This document shows, one piece after another, positions 38,446 to 57,700 of a DNA stretch of 64,000 nt; the stretch's first letter is position 1, and every line of letters begins with the position of its first letter. The stretch comes from Hysterangium stoloniferum (taxonomy: Eukaryota; Basidiomycota; Agaricomycetes; Hysterangiales; Hysterangiaceae): contig WHVD01000018.1 in assembly GCA_015178975.1 (NCBI GenBank), positions 660,001 through 724,000 of the forward strand, written 5' to 3'. The position numbers and the translations under genes are program-made. The notes under the pieces are model-generated. The model saw only the letters and a program-made list of their open reading frames with translations. It ran no database searches and was not told the DNA's origin.

Positions 38446-39220
38446 CAGGAGTATGTGTGTGAAAGAAAGCTAGCTACAAAAGTGCCCTTGGTCACATCTA
38501 TCTACTTTAAACTAAAAGGACTATTTAATTATTTTACTGAACACCCAGTTGTTAGCTTTTTGAGCCTGATCCCAGGATCACAGGGTTGACTACCTGGATA
38601 TTTTCTGGAGAACTGAAAGCTGTCTCAAAATGAGAACCAGCCCCAACAGTTGGTGTTCCTAACTAAAAAGGTCAGAACACAAGGGAGATTTGTTGACAGT
38701 GCACAGAGCCTGAGAGGTTGATAGATGGAGGAATGGGGAATTGGATGTGGGGAGTTATTGGGAGAGAGAAAAAAGGAGAATAGATTTGTTGAGAGAGAGA
38801 GGTAGAGATGGTAGAGTTGTTAAAAGAGTTTCAATATTCTGTTAGGGCAAGACTAACAAGGCTACCAAACACAAGATAGAATATAGAAATATAAAGTGAA
38901 GAGGGGATAGCTCAATGACAGGGGAGATCACACTTGTTTTAGTGGGATTCTTAAGAGATTGGAACTAAAGACTAGCTACATATGTACATGTCCCCTATTT
39001 ATACTATTTATTTATTATTTATGAGAAATCAAAGGAAAGTGCATATATGTACATATGCACCGCTATTGAGCAAACTGGCATTTTGGTGCCTAACTGGTGC
39101 TTTGGCACTTGCATTGGCACTGACTTTGTTTGCAGTGGCAGGGCACACATTTGTGCACAGGGACAGCATTAGACACAGTGCTTTACACTGTGTGTCAACC
39201 AGGCTGTGGGCAGCAGCGGT
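38446..39220. other. Unassigned insertion between RNase H and RT remnants
   Basis: Contains a purine-rich stretch (about 38700-38830) and AT-rich sequence around 39000. No gene seen. With 39221-40047 it makes up about 1.6 kb that separates two halves of a pol gene. I could not find its terminal repeats. Confidence 0.4.
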
Positions 39221-39880
39221 GGCCTTGCAATGGTGACAGTGGCCTTGCAATGGTGACAGTGGCCTTGCAATGGTGACAGTGGCCTTGCAATGGTGACAGT
39301 GGCCTTGCAATGGTGACAGTGGCCTTGCAATGGTGACAGTGGCCTTGCAATGGTGACAGTGGCCTTGCAATGGTGACAGTGGCCTTGCAATGGTGACAGT
39401 GGCCTTGCAATGGTGACAGTGGCCTTGCAATGGTGACAGTGGCCTTGCAATGGTGACAGTGGCCTTGCAATGGTGACAGTGGCCTTGCAATGGTGACAGT
39501 GGCCTTGCAATGGTGACAGTGGCCTTGCAATGGTGACAGTGGCCTTGCAATGGTGACAGTGGCCTTGCAATGGTGACAGTGGCCTTGCAATGGTGACAGT
39601 GGCCTTGCAATGGTGACAGTGGCCTTGCAATGGTGACAGTGGCCTTGCAATGGTGACAGTGGCCTTGCAATGGTGACAGTGGCCTTGCAATGGTGACAGT
39701 GGCCTTGCAATGGTGACAGTGGCCTTGCAATGGTGACAGTGGCCTTGCAATGGTGACAGTGGCCTTGCAATGGTGACAGTGGCCTTGCAATGGTGACAGT
39801 GGCCTTGCAATGGTGACAGTGGCCTTGCAATGGTGACAGTGGCCTTGCAATGGTGATGGTGGCCTTGCAATGGTGATGGT
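39221..39880. repeat. 20-bp minisatellite, 33 units
   Basis: The unit GGCCTTGCAATGGTGACAGT is repeated 31 times without a single change (39221-39840), then twice with TGGTGATGGT endings (39841-39880). Because 20 is not a multiple of 3 and the complement has no stop word, the minus strand is open in all three frames, giving spurious 200-300-codon ORFs with CHHC words. Confidence 0.97.
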
Positions 39881-43889: not shown

Positions 43890-44102
43890 TTCAGCCAAAA
43901 CTCCAAAGTGTTGCATAAATTCATTTCAAGTCTTCTACAAAAAGTACATCCTGTAGTTTGGTCAAGAATACCTTCTGAAGGTAGGATCTCCTTATGTAGA
44001 CCATCATCCCTAACCAAGAAGTAAATTCAGGCAACTCATCTGCAATTGTTCAAAGAGCATTATATACATTCACCTGATGGGACATTAGTTTTGAGAACAA
44101 TA

Positions 44103-45713
44103 CAGTGACCTCAAAAACCCTTTCCATGTTGACCCCAAATGCAGTGTTTGAAGAACACTGCCTTACAGTGTGGGAATTACACTTAACTTTGGTGGAGTCA
44201 TACATAGTACATCCTCTTGGCTACAATATTGCTCGCTGGGTCACATGATTCCAATCACAAGGCATAGAGATATGATTAATTTAAAGCAGCAATACCATGG
44301 AAAGGGTTTTTGCACTTTTGAACTGAACAGGGTATTTACATATTATCAGTACTTGGTATAACCACCTTTTGCTTTAAGCACTGCCTGAACCCTTCTAGGC
44401 ATGCTTTCAATCAATTTCTGACACTCCTCAACTGGTATTCTATCCCACTCCCCTTGAATTCTTTCCCACAATTCATGAGTTCCATTGGGGGGGTTTTCAT
44501 GCTCTGCAAGCCTTCTCTTGAGACAACCCAGAGATGTTCAATAGGATTCAGGTCTGGGGACTGTGCAGGCCAAACCATAGTCCTGAATTCCTGCTCTTCT
44601 AGCCAGTTCTTGACCAGCCTGCAGGTATGCTTAGGGTCATTATCTTGCTGAAAGATGATGTCAGAAGGATTGAGACCATAATACTCCAGGGTTTGCTGGA
44701 GCTCATCCTTCAAAATTTGAAGATAGAGATCTCCATCCATCCTACCATCAATCTTGCTAGCAAAGCCAACTCCCTCCCCAAGTCATACAACCCCACATCA
44801 TAAGAGAACCTCGTCCAAACTTCAGAGTTCCCTCTACCAGCCTATCATTAAGGCCTTCACCTGCCCTTTTCCATCCCCATTTACATCCATCTGACCCTAG
44901 GCGATTGATTTTGGTTTCATCAGACCATATAATCTTCTTCCAGTCCTCCATAGTCCAATCCTTGTGAGCATAGGCAAAGTCCAAGTGAGCTTTCCGATGC
45001 CTAGTGGAAAGAAGGGGGCATTTTGACTTGACCACAGCCTTCATACCAGCTTTCTTCAAGTGGAAGCGAACTGTACTGGCAGAGAGGGGCTGGTTGATAA
45101 TGTTGGTAAGGGCTTTGGTCACTTGGACAGCATTTTCAGCTTTGCCAGAGGTGATGAGATGCTGAGCATGTCAAATATTTGTAGGAGAAAGCTTTGAGGG
45201 ACGACCCCCAATAGCTTTGGGAAGGAGAGAACAATGTTTGGAGCAAAGTTTGGATATGGCAGATGGGCTAACACCAGTTCTCTTGGCAATAGCTTCACCA
45301 GAGTGGCCAGAATCAAGCAAGGAGAGGATGGTATTTTGTTGAGTAAGAGAGAAGGATCTGACCATGATGGTGGTTAGGAATCAAGAAGTGTGGAAGTGTG
45401 AGAACTTTTTTAAACTCAGACATACTATTTACATGTATGTACCAAAAAATAATAGCCATTATTCTATGATTTGACTGAGATCCTAGTCATCAGTTCAAAA
45501 GTGCAAAAACCCTTTCCATGGTATTGCTGTTTTAAATTAATCATATCTCTACACCCTGTGATCGGAATCACATGACCCAGGGAGCAATATTGTAGCCAAG
45601 AGGATGTACTATGTATGACTCCACCAAAGCTAAGTATAATTCCCACGCTGTAAGGCGGTGTTCTTCAAACACTGCATTTGGGGTCAACTTGGAAAGGGTT
45701 TTTGAGGTCACTG
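44103..45713 (-). mobile_element. Tc1/mariner transposon, almost intact (1611 bp)
   Basis: Inverted ends CAGTGACCTCAAAAACCC, flanked by duplicated TA (44101-44102, 45714-45715). The inverted repeats extend about 230 bp inward. It encodes one transposase on the minus strand. It belongs to the same family as the element at 31954, as both ends and protein are similar. Confidence 0.92.
44411..45365 (-). pseudogene. Tc1 transposase, DD34E, two lesions
   Basis: Starts MVRSFSLTQQNTILSLLDSG. Helix-turn-helix region with GVSPSAISKLCSK and the GRPSKLS linker. First catalytic Asp in IIWSDETKIN, second in IIFQQDNDPKHT, Glu in QSPDLNPIEHLW. The spacing from the second Asp to Glu is 34 residues, as in classical Tc1. 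Two defects are visible: a TGA after SPTNI (about 45171) and a frameshift after CMTWGG (about 44755). Otherwise full length (about 320 residues). It would cut and paste the element at TA sites. Confidence 0.9.
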
Positions 45714-45715
45714 TA

Positions 45716-46390
45716 TGGAGGGTGTTTATAATTACTATAATCTCAAATATTTACTAATAAAAGTCTTATTTTTACAAAACTCCATCTTTAAATAGTGATA
45801 TCTATTCTGAAACAATTATATCATCAAAAAACAACCATCAGAAATAGTTCTCCATATTACATCTTATACAACCCATAGTTATTTAACAAATTCTATTGTA
45901 TATAATTTCCTTCCTTTTACAGATGTCTACTAATACTTTTATTAGTACTTTGTCTTTTAAAAGCTGTAATGTAGTTATTTCCTAGTAAAATATATGAGAT
46001 GTCATTGGAAATTTTTCATCCTATTGCCTTCTTTATTAAGTGAAATTACCTATATATTCTGGGTATGTTGAATCAAGTAGAAATCTGTTCAGATTGACAG
46101 ATCCATTCCGAAGTAATACATATGTATTTAGAGGTGCCAATGATATACATATGCATGGAATGGACTATCTAAAGGTATCTACTTTTTAAAAGTATTAGTG
46201 TTTCAAACTACTAATTTTTTTTATTGTCTACTCGTGTCCAGAAAGATTCTTTAGTTTGTAATGTATGAGAGAGTTTAAAACTTTTTGAAAGTTTTAAAAA
46301 CCAAATTATGTTTGAATCACATCCCAGATGTTTAAATGACCTTTAGAGTATATTAGAATTTGGTATACTTAATAGTTTTCAGATATCCTC
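45716..46390. other. AT-rich sequence without a recognised gene
   Basis: Strongly A/T-rich, no long open frame, no repeat that I recognise. Confidence 0.5.
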
Positions 46391-46994
46391 CTATGTAATA
46401 TACATATAATGACACAAAACAATATAGGACAATTGGCTATGTACATATGTACATAGACCCACCCAGGAACAGTCAAGAACCTCCAGGTGAAGAAAAACTG
46501 ATCCATGGAAGAAGCTGAGCTCATCCATCATTATTTTGTAGGCTTTCAAGCATCCACAGCCTAGACAATTCACAAAATTGAAACATACCTAGGACATTCT
46601 TGTTCATTATATTGAAGACCACATCACTGTCTCCAGTACCACAAGAAATTGCTTTCTGATATACTTTCTTCACATCATCGACCAAGGTCCTAGCTGAGGA
46701 AGCCATATAAGACTTAGCAGTCTCCTGAAAGTCCAAATTTGGTGAAGCATCAAGCAAATGGCAACTGATGACCATGGCAGCTAAGAATTATGTGTTAAAG
46801 GGGGAAACAAGTTTGAACAAGTAAATGCAAAATACCAATGCTAAGCCAGACAACCTTGCATTGGGGTAAACAAGAACATGACTGATAAGTTAAATAAACC
46901 AATGGGAAGCATTAGCTAGATATTCAAAAAGTTATCACACCCCATATCTTGGGTGTGTTGAGATCAAGAAAAAGCATTGTTGGGAGTAGTAATC
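46391..46994 (-). CDS. Distal exons downstream of the microexon chain, unknown protein
   Basis: Likely exons: 46994-46941 (after acceptor CCCTCAG), 46780-46602 (after ATTCTTAG) and 46566-46391 (after GTCTAG; 35-nt intron GTATGT..TCTAG). The last two join in frame, with VLG then CGCLKAYKIMMDELSF, and end at a TAA. In phase 0, the phase of the microexons, exon 46994-46941 is open (DYYSQQCFFLIS...), but the next exon then meets a TGA near 46671. In the other phase (start codon inside the exon, MLFLDLNTPKIW) all three exons form one 128-residue frame. So either the chain is read through with an early stop, or it is the 5' UTR of this small protein. No domain recognised. Confidence 0.45.
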
Positions 46995-47150
46995 CTGAGG
47001 GAATAAAAGAATGAGGACAACACAATTGTCAATAAAAGAAAAGAGGAAAAGAAAAATAGAAAATAAACATCATTCCAAAATACAGGGAGATCATGCCCAT
47101 GAAGAGAAGCCATGAGAGGGAAACAAGGAGAAAAAAAATCAAAAACTCAC

Positions 47151-48185
47151 ATCCTGGAAAGAGCATGCCAAGGGAGATGAGCCATGAGAGGCAGACAAGG
47201 AAAGTCAGAAACTCACAGACTGGAAGAGCAAGCCAAGGGAGATAAGCCATGAGAGGCAGACAAGGCATTGTCAGAAACTCACATCCTGGGAAGAGCATGC
47301 CAAGGGAGATGAGTCATGAGGGGCATACAAGGAGGACACTATCAGAAACTCACTTGCTGGGAAAAGCATGCCAAAGGAGATGAGCCATGAGAGGCAGACA
47401 AGGAGGACAAAGTCAGAAACTCACTTCCTGGGAAGAGCATGCCAAGGGAGATGAGCCATGAGGGGTAGACAAGGAGGATATAGTCAGAAACTCACAAACT
47501 GGGAAAAGGATGCCAAGGGAGATGAGCCATGAAGGGCAGACAGGGAGGATGAAGTCAGAAGCTCACTTCCTGGGAAGATCATGCCAAGGGAGATGAGCCA
47601 TGAGGGGCAGACAAGGAGGACAAAGTCAGAAACTCACAAGCTGGGAGAGCATGCCAAGAGAGATGAGCTGTGAAGGGCAGACAAGGAGGATGAAGTCAGA
47701 AGCTCACATCCTGGGAAGAGCATGCCAAGGGAGATGAGCCATGAGGGACAGAAAAGGAGGATAAAGTCAGAAGCTCACATTCTGGGAAGAGCATGCCAAG
47801 GGAGATGAGCCATGAGGGACAGACAAGGGACATAGTCAGAGACTCACTCACTGGGAAAAGCATGCCAAGGGAGATGAGCCATGAGGGGCAGAAAGGAGGA
47901 AAAGGTCACAAACTCACAAAGTGGGAAGAGCATGCCAAGGAGATGACCCATGAGGGGCAGATGAGGGACATAGTCAGAAACTCACTTGCTGGGAAAAGCA
48001 TGCCAAGGGAGATGAGCCATGAGGGGCAGACAAGGAGGAAAAGGTCACAAACTCACAAACTGGGAAGAGCATGCCAAGAGAGATGAGCTATGAGGGACAA
48101 ACAAGGAGGACAAAGTCAGAAACTCACATCCTGGGAAGAGCATGCCAAGGGAAATGAGCCATGAGGGGCAGAGAAGGCAGAAAAA
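47151..48185 (-). repeat. Tandem array of 15 intron-like units with variable triplet
   Basis: Unit length is 66-71 bp. On the minus strand each unit reads GTGAG(T/C)TT...CTGACTT...CTCATGGCTCATCTCCC...CATGCTCTTCCCAG, then three bases, then GTGAG again. Triplets from high to low coordinate: 48128 GAT, 48057 TTT, 47986 CAA, 47918 TTT, 47848 TGA, 47779 AAT, 47708 GAT, 47638 CTT, 47567 GAA, 47496 TTT, 47425 GAA, 47354 CAA, 47283 GAT, 47217 TCT, 47151 GAT. The intron-like part is nearly constant; the triplet is not. One unit (47918) has CAC in place of the acceptor CAG, and one triplet is TGA. Confidence 0.85.
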
Positions 48186-48190
48186 CTTAC

Positions 48191-49632
48191 ATCCTATAAT
48201 GACCACCCCCACAATTGTTCAAGATGTCAGTTTAGTTTGTGATAATAATTCTGATTACAAGCAAGCAAGGAATCCTCGCCACCTGCAATCCCAGATGGAA
48301 ATTCCATTGAGTACCTTTCTTCAATTTGGTACAAAAAGCAAATCACATACACTCTGATTTATATCCAATCAATCAACCACTCAATGCATATCTATACTTG
48401 ACAATGAGTATGTGACTAACCTCCTAAATTGTCCACATCCTACTTAGCCATGAAATGCAACAGAGTCAGATACACTCATTCTCTGTAGGTAATCCACACA
48501 ACCAAAGAGCATAACCATTGTTATCCAGACTTTGACAATGCATTTAACCAGACAAAACATACAGTCTGTTGGTAAGATGAAAAAATATCATGAACTGGTT
48601 TCCAAATCTTAGATAGGCAGTGCTTACAGCCTATCTCCAACACAGTTTTTAATAAGCATACTATAGTTGTTTGGAAGAGACACTCACATCAACCTATTTG
48701 AGCATTACAAATATGACATTAGAATTTCTTAGTAACCAAATCCAGAGAATATTCCAGCTCACAGCCTATCAAGTCCAAGCAGGCAGAAAATTGCTGTGAG
48801 TGAATGAAGTATGTAATTAGAACTCAGAGAGAATTTACATTCTTTTCAGAATGTGGAAATCATATAAGGTTAACTTCAATATAACCATATAAGTATGCTC
48901 ACTTTCTGTGCAGTTTAAAACCAGTTGGATCATACTCTTATTAGTGTGCATCAATCATTTGTGCATTGGATGTGCATACTTACATCCTGAGTCATCCACA
49001 AGTCATTGAGGCACTAAAAGAACATGCAGTACAAAAAGACTCACCATCTGTCACATTGTAGTTTACAGAAACAGTTATGAGCCATTATATGAAAAACTGG
49101 GCAGACACTCACATCCTATCGGTAATATACCCGATGAAGCTTATACAGCCTTGAAACAACAGCAAGGGCTTACCACCTGTCAAATATGTCAGAAGTCAAA
49201 CAAAAATATGAAGAAGCCATACTCACAATCTAAAAGAGGGCAGTGGATGATAAACTAGCTTGAGCAGTATTATAAACATATTTGCTAAAATACTCACCAC
49301 CTGGAAACATAATAATAATTCAATGATTGTGAATAGAAAAAGTGAACTGCAATGGAATTGTGTTACATACATTCTGTGATGGGCAGGGAGAAGTGGAGAT
49401 CAACATAATGATAACACTTCCCAAGGTAGACCTACCTTCCGCTGAGAAGCAATGATGTTAGGTTAGATAAGGCAATCACAATCACAAGCAAGATCAACTC
49501 ACAAACTAAAAGGCCAAGATACTGGAATCAATAATCTCCGGATATTGTCAACATATGTATGGACACTCACACTCTACCAATGAAATATCAGGGAATGACA
49601 TGATAAGAGGATAGCATACAGTCACTCACGGG
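48191..49632 (-). other. Chain of 22 one-codon (3- or 6-nt) microexon candidates
   Basis: On the minus strand each site is an acceptor (..AG), 3 nt, then a donor (mostly GTGAGT, GTAAGY or GTATGT). Lowest coordinate and triplet: 49630 CCC, 49571 AGT, 49503 TTT, 49436 CGGAAG, 49371 AAT, 49298 GTG, 49227 ATT, 49174 GTG, 49113 GAT, 49045 ATG, 48984 GAT, 48903 AAA, 48839 AAT, 48763 GCT, 48688 GTTGAT, 48628 GCT, 48563 ACT, 48480 AGA (donor ATGAGT, irregular), 48421 GAG, 48351 AGT, 48280 GTG (donor GCGAGG), 48191 GAT. Spacing is 53-89 bp. The intervening sequences are unrelated to each other, so this is not a decayed satellite. Branch-like CTNAY words are present in several, such as GTTGACA and AAACTACA. 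Concatenated in phase 0, all 22 are sense codons. Confidence 0.7.
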
Positions 49633-49713
49633 CTGTTGTTACCAACGTTAAAACATGTAAGAGCAGGAGTTACAACATTCTCGTACCAAGACGTGTGGAA
49701 AACAACACATGAC

Positions 49714-51008
49714 CTTGCAGAACAAGGATTTTGCTTGTTCTTCGGAAAATATGCCTGATTCGAGAACAGCTGGGGAAAGTGATATCCATGAATTCAATAG
49801 TCCATCTTGCATTGGCCATATCCTCCCTCACCTTGGACCTGTGGTATAATTATCCTTGGATATCCATGTATTGGCAGTCTGCTTTGAAGGCGGAGAACTG
49901 GGTAGCTCACCTATTGATAACTTTTTTGATACGAGATTCAATATCGATCCGCAATACCGACAGACAGAACAGTTTCAGAGTGTCATGGTCAAGGGCCTGT
50001 GAGGTTCTCACGATCAGCTCATCACAATTAGTACCCTCTTTGTTCATGTCTGAGCAGTATGGCTGAGCGGGTTGCTGTATCATCGACAAGGAGCATACCA
50101 CGAAGCAGTACGACATAACGAGGATTGTGTTTTACTTCATCCAGTCGTTTGAGGTATTTCTCTTGAAACATGACCTTTGCCAGATTGGGAACTTGCTCTT
50201 CAATTTCTTCACAAGAAAGGTCATCGTCATTAAACATTAACTGGTTGCGTGCCACCTGGTCCAGAGCATCCATCTTCGTGAAAATGGCGATAATAGGGAC
50301 TTGGATGATAATCAGTAAACTCAGCTCATGACGCAGACACTCGCTGACCATTTCCAATGCCGCTCTCAAACAGACTCATTTCTGCATTGGTCATCCCTCT
50401 ATCGTTGCTAGTTGGCAAGCAATACCTGAACTGCAAAAGTCAGAAATTGGAAAAATAACATAGAACTTCAGCGCACCAAATGGCGTGCAATTGATCCTTT
50501 AATTGCCTACCCTTTGCTCGGTTTTCGATAAAGTCCTTGACTTTTTGCAATTCGACAGCACCACCCGCTTCGAACCCGCAGGAGTCATGAAATACGAAGC
50601 CGTGAGCAGTTGGATATTGAAACTGGTGTTCGATCTCATGGTTTCCGCGCTAAAAGATTATCATGAGTGCACCACTACTGGAGGTGTAAGTCGATCAAAC
50701 ACAGACCGAGGCCGACGGCTTTAACTTTGAATCGCTCTACATTAGGTAAGTAACAAAAGCACAAAGTAAACTGCATAGGGGATATTGCAGTTAGGTATGG
50801 CACAGATCACTTACATTTAGATAGACCGGTTCGCGACCCTGGGCATGGCACACCTTTTCCAGAATGGTTGTCTTTCCAGCGTTGGCGTTGCCAATAACCA
50901 AAATTCGAAAGCGTTCCACGTGCTATTTGGATATTAGGAAGGAAATCTGCGATTGTTATGAGCACTCCCTACAGGATTATTGGAATTTTCGAGCTGTCCT
51001 TGCGACAT
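49714..51008 (-). CDS. P-loop GTPase-type protein, conventional exons
   Basis: Inferred exons (minus strand): 51008-50973, 50922-50815, 50736-50707, 50649-50477, 50425-50349, 50299-50099, 50049-49911, 49854-49832, 49769-49714. All joins keep frame, with introns of 48-78 nt. The motifs are P-loop GNANAGKTT in exon 2, HDSCGFEAGG (switch/G3 region, usually DxxGF) in exon 4, LKDQLHAIWYCLP across the exon 4/5 join, the G4 motif FTKMDAL in exon 6, and LLRDMNKEGTNC across the exon 6/7 join. This layout is that of the large basidiomycete family of P-loop GTPase (G-domain) proteins; cellular role unknown. The last exon ends ...EEQAKSLFCK in phase 0 at donor GTCATG, whose next acceptor (AACAACAG) is that of the first microexon at 49632. 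An alternative end is a TGA at 49796-49794 if the 49831 donor is not used. Confidence 0.75.
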
Positions 51009-56640: not shown

Positions 56641-57700
56641 TATGATCCCGAGTTGCGAGGCGGTACGGACCATGATGAGGATGATATGCCACTGGATGTG
56701 CAAATGTAAGCCCTTATTCCACTCTTCCCGCACACTTTGTTGATTATATGACTTGCTGGCTGCTTTCTCCCAGACGTTCTGGATGTATGGAGTGTCGTGA
56801 AAGGAATAACGGTGGAGGAATCCGTAATGGCTGGTGTATGTACCATTCTATTTCTTTCTATCACTGTCCCTAACGCCGCTTATTGTTACAGACCAGAGGT
56901 GATTCCAGGACAACGACAGTTCAGATCGTTCACATTCGGCAATATTTGCAAGAAAATTGGGTCGAGTTCCAAAAGGAACAATAGACAGATCACCCAAAAC
57001 CATGTCATGTAGGTTTTCCGGGCTCTCCTTGTCATGTGACGCAATACTAACACTCGTATACTCCAGTATATCTGACCACAGGAATTCAAGATGGCCGATA
57101 ATTGTGATGCCAACCTCCCTTTTAGATTATTTGGTGTTGATATTGGCAACTGTGAGCTGATCGGCGTTCTTCGCACAATTGTAAGTGAGGGTCTTCACCA
57201 CACCTTTTACTGTTCTCACGTTATACATAGGGTGTCGACATCTTCTATACCAGTCAGCACGTTTGGTGTTGATATTGGCAACTATGAGCTGATCGGCGTT
57301 CTTCGCCCAATTAGTAAGTGAGGGTCTTCACCACACCTTTTACTGTTCTCACGTTATACATAGGGTGTCGACATCTTCTATACCAGTCAGCACGTTTGTT
57401 GTTGATATTGGCAACTATGAACTGATCGGCGTTCTTCGCACAATTAGTAAGTGAGGGTCTTCACCACGCCTTTTACTGCCCTCACGTTATACATAGAATG
57501 TCGACATCCTTCTATGCCAGTCAGCACGAATACGCATTCCTTGCAGCGATACAAGTGTGAGTTGTTGTTCGCTCAATTCACTGTCACGAACTCTTGCTTA
57601 TACCTAGCCGTTAGCCATTGTGTCCAACTTATTTGCCATTCGGTCTCATTCCTCTTTCGGTTCCGGATGCTATGCTCTAGGATTATTGTGTGAGAGAAGC
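56641..57700 (+). pseudogene. Unrecognised gene fragment with several spliceable exons
   Basis: Short open stretches joined by GT..AG introns are visible (for example YDPELRGGTDHDEDDMPLDV ending at a GTAAGC donor at 56707, and an exon after TTACAG at 56892). The downstream part is the triplicated unit at 57131-57528, whose 83-nt exon length would shift the frame at every copy. No domain. Likely a broken gene. Confidence 0.4.
57131..57528 (+). repeat. Triplicated exon-intron unit (about 133 bp each)
   Basis: Three head-to-tail copies, each containing TTGATATTGGCAAC...CTGATCGGCGTTCTTCGC, then a 50-nt intron (GTAAGTGAGG...ATACATAG), then GTCGACATC...CCAGTCAGCAC. Introns lie at 57181-57230, 57314-57363 and 57447-57496. 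The exon between is 83 nt. Confidence 0.85.

Follow-up and report, generated by a model that had tools for sequence, protein, structure and literature searches.

Hysterangium stoloniferum is an ectomycorrhizal basidiomycete, and we analysed a 64,000-nucleotide stretch of its genome (the window) that carries, on the minus strand, GTPase exons followed by a long chain of codon-sized exon candidates. The genome of this species is mentioned in PMC7550596. The borders of the GTPase exons were taken from alignment columns across the copies of the gene, and the gene model of the window copy comprises the following features:

50973..51008, minus strand: N-terminal exon 1, start ATG, MSQ... (alignment of 20 copies)
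50815..50922, minus strand: exon 2, P-loop GNANAGKT (alignment of copies)
50707..50736, minus strand: exon 3 (alignment of copies)
50477..50649, minus strand: exon 4, switch region HDSCGFEAGG (alignment of copies)
50349..50425, minus strand: exon 5 (alignment of copies)
50099..50299, minus strand: exon 6, FTKMD (alignment of copies)
49911..50049, minus strand: exon 7 (alignment of copies)
49832..49854, minus strand: exon 8, 23 nt (alignment of copies)
49687..49769, minus strand: exon 9, ending ...CFPHVL, donor GTACGA (GTGCGA in other copies; alignment of copies)
48191..49632, minus strand: 22 modules, peptide PSF..VIVDMDKNAVDATRESVD (the same set of modules in 21 copies; inter-module introns dissimilar by Tandem Repeats Finder)
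47151..48130, minus strand: 15 array units of 71 bp, each one codon plus a 68-nt intron, degenerate in the window copy (AC acceptor, TGA; Tandem Repeats Finder and alignment)
46941..46994, minus strand: tail exon 1, DYYSQQCFF... (alignment of tails)
46836..46881, minus strand: tail exon 2 (alignment of tails)
46589..46780, minus strand: tail exon 3, AAMVISCHLLD...NVL (alignment of tails)

The window copy lacks the last tail exon, which elsewhere in the family reads DFAISSQY-stop; tails ending in SQY and a stop were found in 12 of 16 aligned copies. TRAFAC-like GTPases, with the fungal G domain proteins, are recognised by the motifs G1 (GxxxxGK[ST]), G3 (DxxG) and G4 ([NT]KxD), and an alignment of 36 proteins revealed all three, as GNANAGKT, HDSCG or HDSRG, and FTKMD. 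General GTPase profiles matched weakly, the best Pfam and NCBIfam scores lying under their cut-offs. When the first 313 residues were scanned against Pfam, NACHT stayed below threshold (14.7 bits against a cut-off of 26.7) and ankyrin repeats gave no match. Of the 20 aligned copies, 18 kept an open GTPase frame, whereas L015 and L027 were shifted. The exon preceding the chain closes with CFPHVL, followed by the donor GTGCGA or GTACGA, which sets module 1 in phase 0.

From 49632 to 47151 on the minus strand, each module is made up of an acceptor, three bases (six bases twice) and a donor. Alignment-guided positions confirmed the count of 37 modules given in a first-pass annotation, 22 of them spread over 49632-48191 and the other 15, the array units, over 48130-47151, as well as its intervals of 53–89 bp for the upper half of the chain. 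That annotation had also described the upper-half introns as mutually unrelated and the upper-half triplets as sense codons in phase 0; Tandem Repeats Finder reported no array in the upper half, placing the 71-bp tandem array at 47108-48177, and the sense-codon reading holds in the window copy. A scan of 2,500 minus-strand bases with the strict pattern AG-N3-GTRDGY returned 30 matches, compared to a mean of 0.35 and a maximum of 2 in 300 dinucleotide shuffles. Against dinucleotide shuffles, the upper half gave 15 (mean 0.23, maximum 3) and the array half 14 (mean 0.12). The remaining 61.5 kb of the minus strand held 12 matches and the entire plus strand 11. Several modules of the window copy deviate from the pattern: the donor is AT in module 18 and GC in module 21, the acceptor of array unit 4 is AC, array unit 5 reads TGA, and 6 nt are spanned by module 15 and, on its best reading, by module 4 (CGGAAG). 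This copy looks like a decayed, degenerate member of its family, other members of which are longer. Early regex listings placed a TGA between AAA and GCT; this was an overlap artefact, AG TGA GT within AAAGTGAGT, and vanished in the alignment.

The family was then defined across the genome. The upper chain had 31 genome matches with 73–100% identity, grouped into about 27 loci, and a protein search added at least one further family locus, on C529. A pattern of three linked modules had 645 occurrences in the genome, compared to 41 when the pattern was reversed as a control, and among the matches listed it fell in family loci and on C38. Six matched loci lie on the window's own contig, in a span of about 350 kb (C90, about 613–960 kb), so that the family is partly clustered, and C38:226305-227139 holds an extra run of the three-module pattern that the chain DNA search missed. 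Twenty-seven loci were collected, and modules and array units were counted in 21; L026, L031, L032, L033, L034 and L035, being split or fragmentary, were left out. A naive scan had returned stops in L026, L031 and L032, some of which are overlap artefacts. All 21 copies examined have the same 22 modules followed by 5–68 array units, so that a gene can contain as many as 90 tiny exons. Similarity at the 5′ side begins near the ATG in most copies and about 370 bases further out in some, and mobility of the copies is possible. A transposon or satellite reading of the copies was set aside, the shared part being the gene body.

We next examined the 22 modules. Twenty-one are one-codon exons and one is a two-codon exon, making a 23-residue link, and the peptide read from the 21 copies was PSFNKVIVDMDKNAVDATRESVD, with conservative changes. 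Usable AG and GT/GC sites were present at all 22 modules in fourteen copies, at 21 in five, and at 20 in the window copy and L027; in some copies module 4 is not counted as usable, its reading there being 6 nt. Across 19 copies, divergence per site was 0.009 for AG, 0.012 for GT, 0.058 for the four donor bases that follow and 0.157 for introns, so that the splice dinucleotides diverge about 15-fold less than the introns. Stops were absent from phase 0 of the modules (0/436 codons, with L009 and L027 also omitted) and occurred at 29/417 and 99/417 in the other phases, a clear result against both. In the link, pN was 0.135 and pS 0.102, indicating that amino-acid constraint is weak; the GTPase exons gave 0.053 and 0.148 in 12 copies, each exactly 870 nt long and stop-free. 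Judged from DNA and protein sequences, the single-codon exons are very probably spliced into one frame.

An environmental protein, P0008, provided an independent view of the link. It has 449 amino acids, reads openly through all junctions, comes from a contig of 1,800 nt and is known as protein sequence alone; from its length and absence of introns, we infer that the contig is a cDNA. In P0008 the GTPase is followed by PSFDKLINDMDKNAVNAMRESVD, then by a 37-residue stretch rich in L, D, H, R and F, and then by a tail from YLQQC. Its link is identical to the predicted Hysterangium peptide at 19 of 23 positions, gap-free, compared to 7 for the best of 2,000 random 23-mers. Among the eight environmental proteins examined, identity was 16/23 for P0004, 14/23 for P0010 and 9/23 for P0016, and P0005, P0012, P0021 and P0025 depart early from the predicted peptide. 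The tail of P0008 resembles Hysterangium tails weakly (best E 0.54); when the later portion of P0008 served as query, P0010 and P0004 were the only hits, and no additional protein came up with a profile built from seven predicted tails. P0010 and P0025 continue with VS, the residues that an in-frame GTGAGT would give, and retained introns are likely in both, as far as protein letters can tell. The public Hysterangium models (P0001, P0002, P0003, P0007 and P0019) end in VINR, VINE or VINK, before the chain. Some Amanita muscaria and Russula models extend to VRICS, a read-through of the GTGCGA donor and its neighbours, which suggests that the chain starts at the same place in those genes.

A rival reading makes alternative splicing the main use of the chain, whole-codon exons being skippable in frame so that one gene could yield many proteins. 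All modules except one are 3 nt and phase 0 is kept throughout, several environmental proteins end shortly after a few microexons in a way readable as retained introns, and a precedent exists by citation in the Tuber NACHT-ANK genes, for which alternative splicing has been reported. We consider this somewhat unlikely as the main use, and it is compatible with the explanation we favour, a coding chain with a hypervariable segment.

To characterize that segment, we turned to the array. Unit counts ranged from 5 (L027) and 7 (L014) through 15 (window) to 68 (L025), and the lengths are minima: the end lies beyond reach in several copies (for example L016, L021, L022 and L025), and L014 and L029 run off their contigs. 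Each 71-bp unit is one codon plus a 68-nt intron with a GTGAGT donor and a pyrimidine-rich end. About 24 bases upstream of the AG there is a CTCAT motif whose A and T are near-invariant; it looks branch-like, and each array intron looks complete by these signals. Phase 0 contained one stop in 905 triplets from 19 copies (L009 and L027 again omitted), where about 67 were expected from base frequencies; the sole stop is a TGA in L024, an intact copy. Phases 1 and 2 held 4/886 and 134/886 stops, so the array phase test is strong against phase 2 and weak against phase 1. Furthermore, T was the first base of 207/447 NNT codons but of only 1/404 NRA codons, where a T creates a stop.

Codon use in the array was close to one codon per amino acid: TTT 167 against TTC 1, GAA 133 against GAG 7, CAA 97 against CAG 0, GAT 94, CGA for 109 of 125 arginines and CTT for 89 of 102 leucines. 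Change therefore affects amino acids and not silent letters. Within each of the 18 copies tested, heterozygosity was higher at codon positions (0.50–0.66) than in introns (0.05–0.21), by a factor of 2.6–12; L014 was additionally omitted from the 852 units. Neutral simulations of arrays subject to block copying, conversion and uniform mutation were carried out at three mutation rates, and of 400 runs 0, 1 and 10 attained a codon diversity of 0.496; these lower rates were adopted because an earlier simulation of 60 runs had left introns more diverse than observed. These data suggest that diversifying selection is likely to act on the array residues. The order of residues is near random. In the ten most closely related pairs of copies, the array peptides aligned no better than shuffles (z −1.5 to 1.1), although two of these pairs are 97% alike in the module part; hydrophobic and charge autocorrelation stayed within about 2 SD of shuffles at lags 1–15, revealing no helical or heptad order; and no codon–intron linkage was seen column by column. 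In L030, the most divergent full copy, the array codons mainly end in T and specify L, H, R, D and G, which are also the residues of the P0008 variable stretch.

The way codons travel with their introns was informative for a second alternative, that codon differences arise not from selection but from mutation or replacement aimed at exon positions, or from introner-like gain of near-identical introns between existing codons. Where both flanking introns are identical, the codon is the same in 27 of 32 pairs, showing that units get copied. The codon nonetheless differs in the other 5 of these pairs, and pairs with one identical intron share it in just 36% of 280 (15% by chance), so that unit copying alone is insufficient for the array; both observations would suit such a process. 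It would, however, have to keep the codon in the recent block copies, and blind mutation would not spare the third positions, which are near-fixed for each amino acid. The almost exclusively A- or T-ended codons are also, in our judgement, unlike an ordinary coding stretch later cut up by introns. We therefore regard this alternative as improbable.

Least plausible of all, at a very low probability, is that the region leaves as one long intron or that transcripts end earlier, yielding a short GTPase with the chain as a splice-site-rich relic and the intact peptide elsewhere coming from an older, less divided gene; the public Hysterangium models stopping before the chain and the degenerate window copy fit it, but neither the better-kept splice dinucleotides nor the avoidance of phase-0 stops is expected in skipped DNA.

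Taken together, the chain probably encodes the central part of a GTPase and contains a hypervariable segment under diversifying selection, with one codon per exon. The first-pass annotation had offered three options, and its single-codon coding chain stands on the 20 further copies, the phase-0 stop avoidance and P0008; the last two rule out its heavily spliced untranslated region. Its third option, a ratchet, survives as a possible stepwise order of intron removal. In the favoured model, nine ordinary exons would encode the G domain and a helical extension, the 22 tiny exons would add the 23-residue link, and the tandem 71-bp units would add a variable segment of about 24–68 residues in the longer copies, followed by the C-terminal tail. 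The introns would be recognised individually and excised, perhaps in successive steps. Breaks or exchanges inside introns could add, drop or swap entire codons without frameshift, with selection maintaining codon diversity and exchange homogenising the introns. The variable segment may be used for recognition, a role we put forward tentatively because of its likeness to fungal non-self receptors. More speculative still, the chain could be a codon-cassette generator, a segment rewritten letter by letter, frame-safe and from a fixed, limited set of residues (mainly F, E, R, L, Q and D), such that near-random peptides on a GTPase would serve as recognition tags of individuals or species in ectomycorrhizal and other Agaricomycetes, with splicing choice perhaps multiplying the forms.

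Serial codon-sized exons have a precedent. The first-pass annotation knew of no described gene with dozens in series; however, Tuber melanosporum NACHT-ANK genes have dozens of 3-bp exons according to four papers citing Iotti et al. 2012 (PMC3689799, PMC4986451, PMC10197012 and PMC9815663). As far as these citing accounts go, both cases show serial codon-sized exons by the tens in an expanded, variable P-loop NTPase family of an ectomycorrhizal fungus, whereas the Hysterangium genes belong to a different family (GTPase) in a basidiomycete, below the NACHT cut-off and with no ankyrin match. The exon style is thus common to the two and the gene family is not, so the Hysterangium chain is not a first. 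The Hysterangium arrays have homogenised introns and nearly one codon per amino acid; the comparison with Tuber is limited to exon style. The literature searched, which left most subscription papers and preprints outside, listed no description of such exons in this GTPase family.

Other systems share single aspects, as the cited passages describe them. Schistosoma mansoni micro-exon genes have 10–20 exons per gene of 3–81 or 6–81 bp and introns of 0.1–5 kb (PMC10526429), likewise building a protein from many short whole-codon exons, whereas a Hysterangium gene can have as many as 90 exons, each 3 nt long, and its introns are near 68 nt. In fungal NLR repeat domains, for example Podospora WD repeats, near-identical repeats undergo concerted exchange and diversifying selection at few positions (PMC4986451); Hysterangium arrays are also near-identical repeats with exchange and few diversified positions, but the NLR repeat is protein, whereas a Hysterangium unit is intronic in 68 of 71 bases and varies at a single codon. 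Human UBC uses tandem dual-specific splice sites to splice whole ubiquitin units in or out (PMC10809524), with splice signals at every tandem-repeat border inside a coding gene as here; Hysterangium, unlike UBC, has single codons between ordinary short introns. Introner-like elements are near-identical introns dispersed over unrelated genes. Those of fungi and sister stwintrons supply many near-identical introns per genome (PMC4457414, PMC9024468), a feature shared with Hysterangium, where those seen here are instead tandem within one gene family.

Genes with up to 90 three-base exons offer a probe of how the spliceosome handles exons far below its footprint. Since the array parts the coding letter from its carrier repeat, the introns provide an in-gene neutral yardstick for selection on the letters. 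If the variable segment serves recognition, the same device would have been reached in each of two unrelated NTPase families, from separate fungal phyla. Gene models end at or before the chain, and similar segments may therefore go unseen in other genomes.

Repetitive elements were also noted around the window copy. A Tc1/mariner-type transposon at 44100-45716 on the minus strand lies immediately downstream of the decayed gene copy; its transposase pieces match DDE_3 and HTH_Tnp_Tc3_2, and its flanking inverted repeats of 227 bp are 94% alike. Elsewhere in the window, Tandem Repeats Finder reported a 20-bp unit repeated 33 times at 39219-39876 (99% alike), and a 133-bp unit occurs three times at 57130-57528 (95% alike), possibly within a gene.
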